A DNA stretch of 10,143 nt from Planctomycetota bacterium (GTDB taxonomy: Bacteria; Planctomycetota; B129-G9). How positions within the stretch are numbered: the stretch's first letter is position 1; every line of letters starts with the position of its first letter. Position numbers and translations under genes: made by a program. The DNA lies in NCBI GenBank assembly GCA_030607235.1, contig JAUWEX010000024.1, forward strand, positions 1 through 10,143. The letters are read 5' to 3'. Of this stretch, positions 2,314-6,099 are shown one piece after another. The notes below the pieces were generated by a model, which worked only from the letters and a program-made list of their open reading frames with translations, ran no database searches and was not told the origin of the DNA.

Positions 2314-2691
2314 GCCCCGGTAGCTCAGCAGGACAGAGCGTCGGTTTCCTTCGAAAGAGGGTCCCGATCCGGTAACGGGTCGGTGAAAATCGGGTGAATT
2401 CGGCGAACCCCCCCGCACATCTTACGCGCTGTCGCGCCAGTGCCGGGCAACGCCGAGCCTAGCCGGTTCGCCGGACGAGCGATGCGTTTGCATCGCCCGG
2501 TCGCGGGAGAAATCCCGGGACAGCGGGCCGGAAGGTGTAGAGGCCAGGGCATGAGGTTGCCGGACCGATAAGTGCCCCGCGAGCGCCCGACATCCGCGCG
2601 CTGCGTTGCGGATGATGACATGGTCCAGCCCCGTGTGAAAATGCGGGATCGCTGAAACCGAAGGTCACAGGTTCGAGCCCTGTCCGGGGTA
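2314..2691 (+). tRNA. tRNA-Arg(CCU) split by a group I intron
   Basis: The two exons, 2314-2350 and 2655-2691, join to a normal 74-nt tRNA. The acceptor stem is GCCCCGG with CCGGGGT (the first pair is G-U). The D arm has GCTC/GAGC with GG at 2331-2332. The anticodon stem is TCGGT (2341-2345) with ACCGA (2657-2661). The seven-base loop is TTCCTAA with anticodon CCT at 2348-2350, reading Arg codon AGG. The T arm is ACAGG/CCTGT with loop TTCGAGC, and the discriminator is A (2691). CCA is not encoded and must be added by tRNA nucleotidyltransferase. The intron lies between positions 36 and 37, directly 3' of the anticodon. Without removing 2351-2654 no functional tRNA can form, so splicing is essential if this is the only CCU isoacceptor. 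Confidence 0.93.
2351..2654 (+). ncRNA. group I self-splicing intron (IC3-like) without encoded protein
   Basis: A 304-nt ribozyme in the tRNA-Arg anticodon loop. P1 is formed by the exon end CCT and intron TC, closed by a GAAA loop and paired to GAGGG, which places the diagnostic U-G wobble at the 5' splice site (T2350 with G2359). P2 is CCGATCCG/CGGGTCGG with a GTAA tetraloop (2364-2383). P3 is TCGGGTG (2390-2396) with CGCCCGA (2584-2590). P4 is TCGGCG (2400-2405) with CGCCGA (2451-2456). P5 includes GCAC/GTGC. P7 is GGCCA (2542-2546), within the R-like GTGTAGAGGCCAGG, with TGGTC (2621-2625). P8 is CATCCGC/GCGGATG (2591-2613). P9 is a 7-bp stem with a GAAA loop (about 2631-2647). The last base is G2654 (omega-G). 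From memory, the core closely resembles the roughly 205-nt Azoarcus tRNA-Ile intron. The extra length lies in P6, which carries added hairpins (GCGATGC/GCATCGC; CGGGA-GAAA-TCCCG), and in an insertion at 2547-2583. No homing endonuclease is present. Confidence 0.92.
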
Positions 2692-2759
2692 TTTGATTTT
2701 TATCCCTTTCCCGCCGGACGCGGGGATCAGGTTTATACTTAATATTTTGCGGAGTGCAA

Positions 2760-3413
2760 ATGGCAGCAGATAACAAAAACGAATTCGGCAGGCATCGCGA
2801 AAAGTTCAGCCATGCCGGGGAAAAACCCGACCAGTTTGTCGAGTACAGCGAGAAGATGATCGATTTTTCGCGTCGCAATGCCGTTACAATCACCCTGATC
2901 GCCGTTACCATCGTCGTGGGCATTATCATGATTGCCAAGTTTGCCAGCGATGCCAAAGCCGAAGAAAGAGCATACTGCAGGCAGGCGAACAAATACGAGT
3001 ATTTCGATTTTCAGTCCGCCGAACTGGCGTCTTCCGAGAAAAAACCCAAGGTGGAAACGGTCGTTACCAACTTCCAAACACTCTCCGAGCAGAACTCCGA
3101 TCACGACAAAGCGCTTGCGACTCTTGTGGCGCTGGGCACCAGAGCCGAAATCGCGGCGGAGCAGTTGCTCAGCGAAGACGCCGCCAACACCGCTTTGTGG
3201 GCCTGGAATACCATCCTCGAAAAATATCCCGACTCCGCAATCGCCAGGGCCGTTGATCCCAACGATCAGGTGAATTTTCTGAGCAAGCACATCGAACGGA
3301 TGAAAAACCTCCTGGAGCAGATAAATAACATCAAGCAGAAGGCGGAATTCGATCCCGAAGGATTGAGCCAGACCGTCGACCCCCTCAGCCAATACAGAGA
3401 TATGATGAGATAA
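2760..3413 (+). CDS. single-span membrane protein of unknown function
   Basis: A 217-residue protein. Residues 1-39 are hydrophilic and charged, ending in RR. Residues 40-59 form one transmembrane helix rich in Ile and Val, and the remainder is a hydrophilic, mostly helical domain predicted to lie outside the cytoplasm. The segment LWAWNTILEKYPDSAIA resembles a TPR helix pair, so the outer domain may be a scaffold like that of YfgM-type anchored proteins; this is a weak resemblance. A GTG at 2754 is in frame, but it overlaps the GGAG Shine-Dalgarno (2751-2754), which lies 5 nt from the ATG at 2760, so 2760 is taken as the start. The gene lies 68 nt after the tRNA and 67 nt before rluD on the same strand. 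Co-transcription with rluD is possible, but no link in function is visible. Confidence 0.8.
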   Translation: MAADNKNEFGRHREKFSHAGEKPDQFVEYSEKMIDFSRRNAVTITLIAVTIVVGIIMIAKFASDAKAEERAYCRQANKYEYFDFQSAELASSEKKPKVETVVTNFQTLSEQNSDHDKALATLVALGTRAEIAAEQLLSEDAANTALWAWNTILEKYPDSAIARAVDPNDQVNFLSKHIERMKNLLEQINNIKQKAEFDPEGLSQTVDPLSQYRDMMR

Positions 3414-3480: not shown

Positions 3481-4506
3481 ATGCCAGAAGACAGCATTCT
3501 CTTTAATAAGCAGATATACGTCGTATCCGAAAGCGAAGCGGGCAAACGCGTCGACAAATTCCTTTCGGATAAAGTGCGTGCGTTATCTCGCGCCTATATC
3601 CAGGGCCTCATCAAGGAAGGCCACGTAACGATCGACGGCGCCACCTGCAAACGCAACACACTCGTGCGCGAGTTTCAGAGCGTGATGATGGAGGTTGCGC
3701 TGCCCGCTACTTTCTCGCCCACACCCGAAGACATCGCACTGGATGTCCTCTACGAAGACGACTACCTGATCGTCGTCAACAAACCCCCCGGGCTGGTGGT
3801 TCACCCCGCGCCGGGCCACTTCGAAGGCACCCTTGTCAACGCGCTGATGAATCACTGCGGCACGCTCTCCGACGTTGCCGGCCCGCTACGACTGGGTATC
3901 GTCCATCGGCTCGACAAGGACACATCCGGCGCGATGGTAGTGGCCAAAACCAACGAGGCCCACGATGCGCTCGCGCTGCAATTTCGCGAACGCAGCGAAG
4001 CGCTGATCAAGGAATACGTCGCGATAAGCGAAGGCGAATTTCGGTTCGACGCCGACACCATCGACCTGCCGCTGGGCAGGCATTTCCGCGACAAGAAAAA
4101 AATCGCCGTGGTCTTCGGCGGCGGCAAAGAATCCATTAGCCGTTACCAGGTATTGGAGCGTTTCAAAAACTATACCTTCGTGCGGGTGCTGCTCAAAACC
4201 GGCCGCACCCATCAGATTCGCGTTCACCTCAAGGCCCTGGGCCATCCGATCGTCTGCGACGGCTACTACGGCAACCGCCGTCGATTCCGCCTGCATGACG
4301 TTGTGCCCGAAAAGAAGCGCTCCGAACTGACCGAGCAACAACTCAACCGCATCCTTATTGGACGGCAGGCCCTTCACGCGTACAGGTTGCAGTTCGAGCA
4401 TCCCAAAAACGGCGAAATCATCGACGTTCAGGCACCGTATCCCCGCGATATCGAAAACACGCTGGAGGCGCTGCGCGAGTGGGCCTTGCCGGAGGGCGTG
4501 AATTGA
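3481..4506 (+). CDS. rluD: RluD-type 23S rRNA pseudouridine synthase (RluA family)
   Basis: The enzyme isomerises uridines to pseudouridine in large-subunit rRNA. In E. coli, RluD acts on helix 69 (positions 1911, 1915 and 1917). The 341-residue protein has an N-terminal S4 RNA-binding domain (about 21-67), then the catalytic fold. It contains NKPPGLVVHPAPGH, the catalytic motif HRLDKDTSG with Asp145 (codon 3913-3915), KTGRTHQIRVHL, and RQALHAYRLQFEHP near the end. Length and the HPAPGH block match RluD and YlyB better than RluA or RluC, but the target site cannot be proved from sequence. A stop codon in frame at 3457 and the lack of another early ATG fix the start at 3481. No Shine-Dalgarno is visible there, so it may be weakly initiated or depend on an upstream transcript. 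Its stop codon overlaps the start of the kinase gene. Confidence 0.92.
   Translation: MPEDSILFNKQIYVVSESEAGKRVDKFLSDKVRALSRAYIQGLIKEGHVTIDGATCKRNTLVREFQSVMMEVALPATFSPTPEDIALDVLYEDDYLIVVNKPPGLVVHPAPGHFEGTLVNALMNHCGTLSDVAGPLRLGIVHRLDKDTSGAMVVAKTNEAHDALALQFRERSEALIKEYVAISEGEFRFDADTIDLPLGRHFRDKKKIAVVFGGGKESISRYQVLERFKNYTFVRVLLKTGRTHQIRVHLKALGHPIVCDGYYGNRRRFRLHDVVPEKKRSELTEQQLNRILIGRQALHAYRLQFEHPKNGEIIDVQAPYPRDIENTLEALREWALPEGVN
4491..4496 (+). promoter_or_regulatory. ribosome binding site that sets the TTG start of the kinase gene
   Basis: GGAGGG lies inside the last codons of rluD, six bases before TTG at 4503. A GTG in the same frame at 4479 lies upstream of this site and has no Shine-Dalgarno of its own. 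The arrangement TTGA, start TTG and stop TGA sharing two bases, implies translational coupling. Confidence 0.65.
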
Positions 4507-5300
4507 ACGGGCGCATCGACAGGTCCCGGGGGCAGGTTTTGCCCGACGTGGTAGAGATCAAAGGTTACCCGCATCGCTGTGTCGATATCCTCAAGGAAGA
4601 TTTTTACGCCATTACCCGCATCTACGAAGGCCCCGCCGGCAAGTTCATCGTCAAGGCCAGCCAACTCTACCCGTACCGCAATTTTTTGCGCGAGTGGGCC
4701 GCGGCGTTTTTGGTGAAACGCGAATTGCGCAATCACAAGCGCCTTGAGCACATCGAAGAGATCCCGCGGATCGTACGCAAGATAGGGCGTTTCGGTTTTG
4801 TGCGCGAGTACGTCCCCGGCACAACGCTCAACCGCGCCGACAAGGTCAACGACGAATACTTCGACGGCCTAAAGGCGATTCTCGAAAAAGTCCACGCCGC
4901 CGGAGTGGCGCACATCGACATCGAAAAGCCCGAAAACATCCTCGTCGGCGACGACGGCAAACCCTACATTATAGACTTTCAGATATCGTGGTGTCCGTAC
5001 CACTGGCTGGCGGTGTTCCGCTGGCTGACGTGGCCGTTGTTCAGCATCGCCCTGCGCGAGGACTGGTATCACTTCTACAAGCACAAACGCAAACGACGCA
5101 AGGATCTCGTTACCGAAGAGGAGTACCGCCTGGGCAAGCGCACGAGTTGGGCAATCAGACTTCACAGGTTTGTTACCAGGCCGTATTTCTTTATCCGCCG
5201 CCGGATACAGAAAAAACGTCATATGGGGCGAGGCGAAGACAGGCCGAGCGACGAAAAACGCGCGGCCTACCGCAACACCTCATCGTCGAAGAAATCATAA
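4503..5300 (+). CDS. protein-kinase-fold enzyme, WaaP/InaA- or RIO-like, substrate unknown
   Basis: A 265-residue protein with the core of a kinase-like phosphotransferase. A candidate ATP lysine is Lys51 (in KFIVKAS) and a candidate helix-C glutamate is Glu74. The catalytic loop is HIDIEKPEN with Asp139 and Asn145, and the metal-binding motif is DFQ with Asp158 (usually DFG). There is no clear glycine-rich loop, and the catalytic loop lacks the HRD arginine. Both traits are common in lipopolysaccharide or RIO-type kinases and unlike the typical Hanks kinases of this phylum. Residues 163-184 are rich in aromatic and hydrophobic residues (many Trp) and are followed by a very basic stretch (KHKRKRRK), which suggests docking at the inner membrane. 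The C-terminal 60 residues are basic and probably disordered. A lipid or sugar substrate in the envelope is a reasonable guess, and the coupling to rluD leaves an RNA or ribosome role open. It ends 16 bases from a convergent gene. Confidence 0.75.
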   Translation: MNGRIDRSRGQVLPDVVEIKGYPHRCVDILKEDFYAITRIYEGPAGKFIVKASQLYPYRNFLREWAAAFLVKRELRNHKRLEHIEEIPRIVRKIGRFGFVREYVPGTTLNRADKVNDEYFDGLKAILEKVHAAGVAHIDIEKPENILVGDDGKPYIIDFQISWCPYHWLAVFRWLTWPLFSIALREDWYHFYKHKRKRRKDLVTEEEYRLGKRTSWAIRLHRFVTRPYFFIRRRIQKKRHMGRGEDRPSDEKRAAYRNTSSSKKS

Positions 5301-5316: not shown

Positions 5317-6099
5317 TCAGTTCCCGTGTGCCTGTTTCCGTTGTTCGATTACCGAAGCCGTCTTTGTCTTCAGACTCGCCGCCATCTTTACGTCGCATTC
5401 CGCGTTAACCTCATCGCGACTATTGCGTATTTTGCTTTTGAGATTGAGCGCGGCGATCGCTTTGCCGTCGATTTTGGCGTTGACCGAAACCATCGCCAGC
5501 GGAAACCCGCTCTTTACGTCTATCAACAGCCCCTGTGCCGCAGCCGTGGCCTGAATCGAATTGCCTGGAAGGCAAAACAGCCCGACTCCCGTGAAATAAC
5601 CCAGTGCCATCGGATTGTAGAAATCCTCGATGACATTGTTTTTGGTGTACACGAACAGGATATCCGCGCCCAGGGCCGCGGCGCATTTCCTGATACGTGT
5701 CAGGTCCGACGAGCCTGGGCCGAAAGAGATAAGCGGTTCTATGCGGCTGATTGCGCCGATGTCGTTGAATTCATTTTCTATCGTTTCGATAGTTTCCGGT
5801 GCGGGGGTTGTCATACACCATCGGCTTGGGGCGCGTTGTTCAACCCACGCAACCGCCATGATCGCGGGGAACTGCGCGAATATCTTTCTTTGGGGCATTT
5901 CGCTTACGCCGGGTTCGTCAACGTCAAAAGTCTCCATGTTCAGCGTCATTTTTAGTTCGCGGCCCATTGTCGAAGACCCTTCGATGCCCTTGAGCGCGAA
6001 AGACCCTATGTCAGCCTTGGCCTCTGGCATGTTTGCGGAACATCCGACCGAAATTATTCCTGCTACCGCCAGACAAATCAGGATAATTATGTTCTTCAT
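5317..6099 (-). CDS. predicted lipoprotein of unknown function
   Basis: A 260-residue protein. The frame is open upstream to 6252, but two adjacent ATGs (6102 and 6099) follow a GGAGG at plus-strand 6106-6110. The second, 6 nt from that site, is the better start and gives a signal peptide MKNIIILICLAVAGIISVGC with Cys20 as the likely lipidated residue (Ser at -3 is atypical). The mature part opens with about 70 residues of beta-like sequence. It then has a helix containing RIRKCAAALGADILFVYT, a loop with LPGN, and QGLLIDVKSGFPLAMVSVNAK. That order (cysteine or alanine-rich helix, GADxLxVYT, LPGN, DVxSGxxLA) recalls a conserved envelope-lipoprotein family I know only as hypothetical. The neighbouring lipoprotein gene points the other way from the shared 269-base gap. 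Confidence 0.75.
   Translation of the reverse strand: MKNIIILICLAVAGIISVGCSANMPEAKADIGSFALKGIEGSSTMGRELKMTLNMETFDVDEPGVSEMPQRKIFAQFPAIMAVAWVEQRAPSRWCMTTPAPETIETIENEFNDIGAISRIEPLISFGPGSSDLTRIRKCAAALGADILFVYTKNNVIEDFYNPMALGYFTGVGLFCLPGNSIQATAAAQGLLIDVKSGFPLAMVSVNAKIDGKAIAALNLKSKIRNSRDEVNAECDVKMAASLKTKTASVIEQRKQAHGN

Follow-up and report, generated by a model that had tools for sequence, protein, structure and literature searches.

A P7.1-bearing group I intron in the anticodon loop of a planctomycete tRNA-Arg(CCU) gene

The locus studied here raises the question of what interrupts a bacterial tRNA-Arg(CCU) gene, whether the insert is likely to splice, and how it came to lie in a chromosome. In the window, by which we mean the whole stretch of 10,143 nucleotides that was analysed, ARAGORN in its default mode (introns off) returned zero tRNAs, showing that default tRNA annotation can overlook such genes. 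With introns allowed, it returned one tRNA in the window, at 2314–2691 and with a 304-nt intron. Joining of the two exons (2314–2350 and 2655–2691) afforded a complete 74-nt tRNA-Arg(CCU) cloverleaf in ARAGORN. A preliminary description had placed a group I intron with a 304-base insert in a tRNA-Arg(CCU) at 2314–2691, and these coordinates and lengths proved exact when compared with the ARAGORN and RF00028 results. The features of the locus are given below by position; R1 denotes our own covariance model.

2275–2303, + strand: promoter-like site TTGCAA-17-TATATT with 9 of 12 consensus bases, ending 10 bases upstream of the tRNA
2314–2350, + strand: 5′ exon of tRNA-Arg(CCU), last base U36 (ARAGORN, comparison with relatives)
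2348–2361, + strand: P1, CCU/UC (2348–2352, slash at the splice site) with GAGGG (2357–2361), GAAA loop (fold, sequence)
2351–2654, + strand: group I intron, 304 nt, with terminal omega-G (ARAGORN, RF00028, R1)
2364–2383, + strand: P2, 2364–2371 with 2376–2383, 8 pairs, GUAA loop (fold, sequence)
2390–2396, + strand: P3 5′ strand, partner 2584–2590, 7 pairs (R1; the helix covaries in 30 relatives)
2400–2456, + strand: P4, 2400–2405 with 2451–2456, and the hand-placed P5, 2408–2410 with 2445–2447 (R1, alignment)
2457–2535, + strand: P6, 2458–2459 with 2534–2535, and an enlarged, hand-placed P6a, 2463–2466 with 2528–2531 (R1)
2542–2546, + strand: P7 5′ strand GGCCA (guanosine-binding helix), partner 2621–2625 UGGUC (sequence)
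2547–2577, + strand: P7.1 hairpin, GGGCA (2547–2551) with UGCCC (2573–2577), between P7 and P3′ (covarying in relatives)
2584–2590, + strand: P3 3′ strand (R1, sequence)
2591–2614, + strand: P8, CAUCC (2591–2595) with GGAUG (2610–2614) (R1, sequence)
2621–2625, + strand: P7 3′ strand UGGUC (sequence)
2630–2647, + strand: P9, 7 pairs of which two are G.U, GAAA loop (RF00028 alignment, sequence)
2655–2691, + strand: 3′ exon of tRNA-Arg(CCU), first base A37, CCA not encoded (ARAGORN, relatives)
2754–3413, + strand: gene without Pfam match, a distant homologue of which follows the uninterrupted tRNA-Arg(CCU) in two sister-genus genomes (G001, G002)

The helices that define a group I core, P3, P4, P6, P7 and P8, are all present and in the right order. 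P1, P2, P3, P4, P7, P8 and P9, the splice-site U-G pair and the terminal G, all named in the preliminary description, were recovered in the RF00028 alignment and the sequence, and P5, P6 and the P7.1 hairpin could be added to them. GNRA loops cap P1, P2 and P9. P7 opens with G2542-C2625, the guanosine-binding G-C pair, and features a C-G pair where U-A is usual, while the last base of the intron is G2654. No endonuclease gene was found in the intron, as 2351–2654 contains no + strand ORF of at least 80 aa, and by eye the 3′ exon showed no clear pairing that could form P10. Promoter-like sites number 4 on both strands of 2150–2800, compared with 0.3 in shuffles, a resemblance that says nothing on function. 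A match to the snoRNA sR28 in the window (17.5 bits versus a gathering value of 39) was taken as chance.

The reading register of the anticodon required separate consideration. ARAGORN positioned the intron three bases early, which turns the anticodon into Gln(CUG), and our own register-scoring script likewise favored the Gln register, having admitted a G.U-rich pairing between exon and P2 strand. A tRNA-Gln(CUG) spliced after U33 was nevertheless rejected, since the exons fit Arg(CCU) better and U36 makes the U.G pair in P1. The joined exons share 86.5% identity with the intact sister-genus tRNA-Arg(CCU) versus 63.5% with the tRNA-Gln(UUG) of their own genome, and their loop TTTCCTAA recurs in G001, G002 and G391, where Arg(CCU) is encoded by intact genes; G391 belongs to the family f4 discussed below. 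Based on this exon identity, the common loop and the wobble of U36 (2350) with G2359 that marks the 5′ splice site, we hold the Arg(CCU) register to be right, and the insertion after base 36, as initially described, is borne out by the same pair and register.

A comparison with the Rfam group I model, which had been put forward as a check, revealed a match at 2338–2647 over the full model length (E 4e-7, 34.5 bits), although this score does not reach the gathering cut-off of 50 bits, a detection threshold and not a biological feature. At E up to 0.001 it is the sole RF00028 match genome-wide. The free fold of the precursor (z −3.57) is more stable than 100 of 100 shuffles. For a more specific model, R1, 30 introns were hand-picked from 86 representatives with the window excluded; the members had been gathered by a window-derived pattern (P7 5′, P3′) and their ends trimmed by P3-P4 5′ and P7 3′ motifs, at the loss of 18 of 241 rows. 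R1 matched the window at 2387–2626 with 101.2 bits and an E-value of 3.1e-32 that is partly circular, the members sharing selected motifs; because of the window-derived selection, neither this value nor some of the invariant columns are independent of the window. No such selection touches the match to Rfam, the exons of the tRNA or helices including P4 3′, P6, P7.1 and P8. Within the thirty-intron alignment, 95.1% of the cells are paired and 18 of 35 pairs show changes on both sides, values that 0 of 500 shuffles attained for either measure, and likewise none for the covariation score. All P3 cells of the thirty are paired, as are 76% of those of P7.1, in which each of the five pairs shows two-sided changes. 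The window matches 48 of the 51 columns invariant in the thirty, some of which had been selected for, and its three departures all fall in P7 and keep the pairing (U-A to C-G, A-U to G.U).

We thus regard it as highly probable that the window harbors a P7.1-bearing group I ribozyme without an endonuclease gene, which interrupts the anticodon loop of tRNA-Arg(CCU) in the chromosome, is able to splice to a 74-nt tRNA and was, most likely, gained by mobile-intron spread. The exons, core helices and splice-site bases, as well as the relatives and the uninterrupted sister loci presented below, are read directly from the DNA. On this basis, we infer that the tRNA is transcribed, spliced and charged, and the intron is probably self-splicing. 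In the precursor RNA, the internal guide GAGGG would pair with CCU/UC to form P1 and set U36.G at the 5′ splice site. Free guanosine bound in P7 would attack after U36, which would then itself attack after the terminal G of the intron, so that the exons become ligated to a tRNA-Arg(CCU) predicted to read AGG.

By wobble, AGG could also be read by tRNA-Arg(UCU). As the genome encodes such a tRNA, the cell need not depend on splicing and could tolerate decay. A decayed intron that has kept its core while the ribozyme no longer splices, AGG being read by tRNA-Arg(UCU) or by an intact gene missing from the assembly, would agree with the presence of this tRNA, with the Rfam score under the cut-off and with a genome that is just 76% complete. 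We nonetheless consider decay very improbable, as nearly all invariant positions are kept (some of them selected for), the three changes leave P7 paired, the exons, the U.G pair and the terminal G are intact, and no intact tRNA-Arg(CCU) copy was found. A second intact tRNA-Arg(CCU) elsewhere had been named in the preliminary description as the sign of a dead copy; none was found in the 76% complete genome, a draft in 418 contigs with 28 other tRNA matches and the Arg anticodons CCG, UCU and ACG.

Hydrazine synthase is known from anammox planctomycetes. Its alpha subunit (PF18582) was detected in 3 of 4 tested f43 genomes, which belong to the same phylum as the window's genome, and in 0 of 14 controls; the window's genome, G005 and G027 gave no match to PF18582. 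Given these phylum mates, the host phylum is taken as Planctomycetota, in line with the initial impression of a planctomycete. Among four genomes examined in the window's class, only the window's carries the intron, and both sister-genus genomes (G001, G002) possess an uninterrupted tRNA-Arg(CCU). Homologues of the gene at 2754–3413 follow this tRNA in the same order in both, with 23–25% identity. A mis-binned contig, in which the window would be foreign to its genome, might be suspected from the draft state in 418 contigs, but this conserved order of tRNA-Arg(CCU) and downstream gene in both same-family genomes, despite the low identity, makes it hardly credible. Further along the window, a reading frame at 4479–5300 with a sub-threshold Pkinase match (23.6 versus 31.7 bits) adjoins an RNA pseudouridine synthase gene.

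Regarding the type of intron, the classic tRNA introns of subgroup IC3 are without P7.1 or P7.2 between P7 and P3′, and subgroup IA carries P7.1, with or without P7.2, at this place. The Azoarcus tRNA-Ile(CAU) and Agrobacterium tRNA-Arg(CCU) introns both sit after base 36. With its tRNA-Arg(CCU) and its insertion after base 36, the window's intron agrees with the Agrobacterium type as generally characterized, isotype and site being alike by description and not by sequence. However, the hairpin at 2547–2577 sets it apart, again by descriptions, from the Azoarcus and Agrobacterium IC3 introns without P7.1, and it is not of the plain IC3 type, judged by the general features of that subgroup. P7.1 has been used as a feature for classing group I introns in a review of their subgroups, according to which phage introns were then (2014) known in protein genes only (PMC3984707), and the Azoarcus intron has been assigned to IC3 (PMC4498298). 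The core and P7.1 recur in tRNA introns of Burkholderiales (CAU) and of Acetobacteraceae, cyanobacteria and Aminicenantes (Asn), which differ from the window's in isotype and site, mostly after 36 (CAU) and after 35 (GUU). Bacterial tmRNA group I introns also contain a P7.1 region and include an endonuclease gene in few cases, 36 of 883 (PMC11915505). Compared by description, they resemble the window's intron in P7.1 and in the rarity of the endonuclease gene, but are located in the TpsiC loop.

A 2014 overview assigns bacterial group I tRNA introns to cyanobacteria, alpha- and beta-proteobacteria only, with 37/38 as the usual site (PMC4033280). Elsewhere, an fMet or Ile2 tRNA gene was reported to be overlooked through group I introns in 36 genomes (PMC8450103), interrupted tRNA-Arg(UCU) and tRNA-Leu genes were described for Thiomargarita (PMC4853749), and short inserts in cyanobacterial tRNAs were termed group I, with mention of tRNA-Arg(CCU) introns (PMC5733544); further background concerns archaea (PMC6125680), a database (PMC11835236) and two additional studies (PMC4390854, PMC7886860). 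Within the titles and abstract openings of open-licence literature, no report of planctomycete tRNA genes with such introns was found, which is a weak negative. The window's intron is a fresh case of an already known intron sort.

Searches across the phylum followed. RF00028 with strict filters scored only G066 among 79 genomes and missed the window's own intron; in this genome of the same phylum (L002, L422), a tRNA-Arg(UCU) carries a short group I intron without P7.1. R1 matched 15 of 392 genomes of the phylum, among which the exact pattern had retrieved none but that of the window. tRNA-Arg(CCU) introns account for 8 of the 15 (the window and seven genomes of family f4); the other matches comprise a CAU tRNA (G376, by eye), a tRNA-Asn (G187), the tRNA-Arg(UCU) of G066 and four that could not be placed (G254, G174, G266, G285). 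A survey of f4 itself matched 8 of 41 genomes, of which two were already known; the remainder comprise five new Arg(CCU) cases and one contig-end fragment. Counted from rows, 48 different f4 genomes were covered (10 through the phylum sample and 41 through the family survey, 3 of them by both), and 12 of these have same-site Arg(CCU) introns. As both R1 searches used strict filters, some introns may be missed. ARAGORN read most f4 introns in an Arg(CCG), Gln or Pro register, and CCU was read from the common TTTCCT exon end. In G391, the tRNA-Arg(CCU) is uninterrupted and shares 95% identity with the G005 exons after joining.

As to its origin, the preliminary description had considered horizontal spread or great age. 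Great age by vertical descent is unsupported, with the G001 and G002 loci uninterrupted and a patchy distribution; horizontal spread, or repeated gain and loss, fits better. Most likely, the intron spread into this lineage as a mobile intron once the sister genus had diverged; intron loss in the two sisters is an alternative indistinguishable from gain.

For a common origin with the f4 Arg(CCU) introns, with a single intron lineage passed down within the phylum or homing there to this site, we see even chances. Both share the tRNA and the site after U36, the guide AGAGGG is identical in 10 of 12 f4 introns, and the fourth pair of P7 is C-G in the window and in 12 of 12 f4 introns versus 2 of 241 pattern matches listed elsewhere (L194, L370), the survey pattern having admitted both C-G and U-A forms. 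P1, however, tracks the target site and is thus weak evidence of descent. Sequence identity between the f4 introns and the window amounts to 60–65% (seven compared), the f4 P7.1 region contains a longer insertion, and P2 in the aligned f4 introns is formed by different bases (by eye). In a core tree of 53 introns and 165 core columns, from which 7 of 60 rows were dropped (L422, L420, L424, L426 and one match each of L147, L194 and L083), the 12 f4 introns form one group (support 100/98) that does not include the window. The window instead falls with Acetobacteraceae (Rhodopila) tRNA-Asn introns, nearest to L339 and L317, at a support of 86/80 that is not strong, and forcing it with f4 is 16.6 log-likelihood units worse, although the AU test does not reject this grouping (p 0.093). 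In the wider 60-row tree, which includes very divergent rows, the window was placed similarly, with support 98.

This placement raises the possibility, to which we lean less, of an independent arrival, in which a tRNA-Asn-type intron from another phylum jumped to tRNA-Arg(CCU) with a changed guide. In a blastn comparison with loci other than those of f4, the best match lay in a tRNA intron from Burkholderiaceae (81% along 81 bases), which would suit such an event. Yet the tree support is indecisive, the window's branch is long (0.49), and the common P7 C-G pair points to f4. A phage source of the Arg(CCU) intron was rejected, as the two viral P1-type pattern matches are without an intron-bearing tRNA in ARAGORN and appear to be coding DNA by eye; blastn against plasmids and phages yielded no match to the intron.

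Spread of a mobile intron, our preferred reading, was placed in a broader context using the window's P7-P7.1-P3′ part as a survey pattern, which matched at least 117 stretches in GTDB genomes and at least 120 in viral contigs. Among the matches listed, 93 of 118 in genome loci and, over both scans, 9 of 123 in viral loci lie within a tRNA (ARAGORN, introns allowed). These 93 listed matches span at least 16 named phyla or candidate groups, including 41 from Pseudomonadota and 12 without a phylum given. The earlier statement that group I introns in bacterial tRNAs are known in few settings therefore does not hold, since the P7.1 type alone has this range, as against the three groups of the 2014 overview (PMC4033280). 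Insertion sites were called from the exon-end U, the intron-end G and P1 for 103 rows (the window, 9 viral and 93 genome rows), of which 3 received no call and some minor classes look unreliable. Among the 103 rows listed, insertion is commonest after 36 in CAU tRNAs (35 rows) and after 35 in GUU tRNAs (27 rows), and CCU is the best register for the window's row alone. The hosting tRNAs are CAU and Asn(GUU); Phe, Leu, Lys and others are less certain hosts.

The P7.1 type has been little described; its occurrence is scattered, and many bacterial tRNAs carry it in their anticodon loop. Because it is so widespread, genomes seemingly missing a tRNA may merely have the gene interrupted by an intron. 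The recurrence of insertions at anticodon-loop sites can also serve to test how group I introns spread when they have no endonuclease. It seems rather doubtful to us that the P7.1 types make up one widespread, mostly endonuclease-free family moving among tRNA anticodon loops across bacterial phyla and viruses by guide change alone, with the window as an Asn-type to Arg(CCU) jump independent of f4.

Other group I introns are also found in tRNA genes on viral contigs. With an IC3-like core pattern, 78 of 122 matches in IMG/VR viral contigs (L032–L151) lie in stretches with an intron-bearing tRNA according to ARAGORN, the cases including Leu(UAA), Arg(UCU) and others, with some contigs exceeding 200 kb; prophages or mis-sorted sequences may be among these contigs, and the ARAGORN registers are unsure. 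A Phycisphaerales genome (L332:1250–1720) contains, by eye, a P7.1-type intron in tRNA-Asn(GUU) for which ARAGORN made no call, with an HNH-endonuclease-like stretch (by eye) in a reading frame upstream of the core. A similar HNH-like coding stretch is located just before the core of a Chloroflexi P7.1-type intron on the − strand of L301 (by eye). Finally, the Rhodopila contig L339 carries two P7.1-type introns on opposite strands, at 4560–5000 and 5450–5650, and one tRNA copy seems broken, with extra bases in its 3′ exon.
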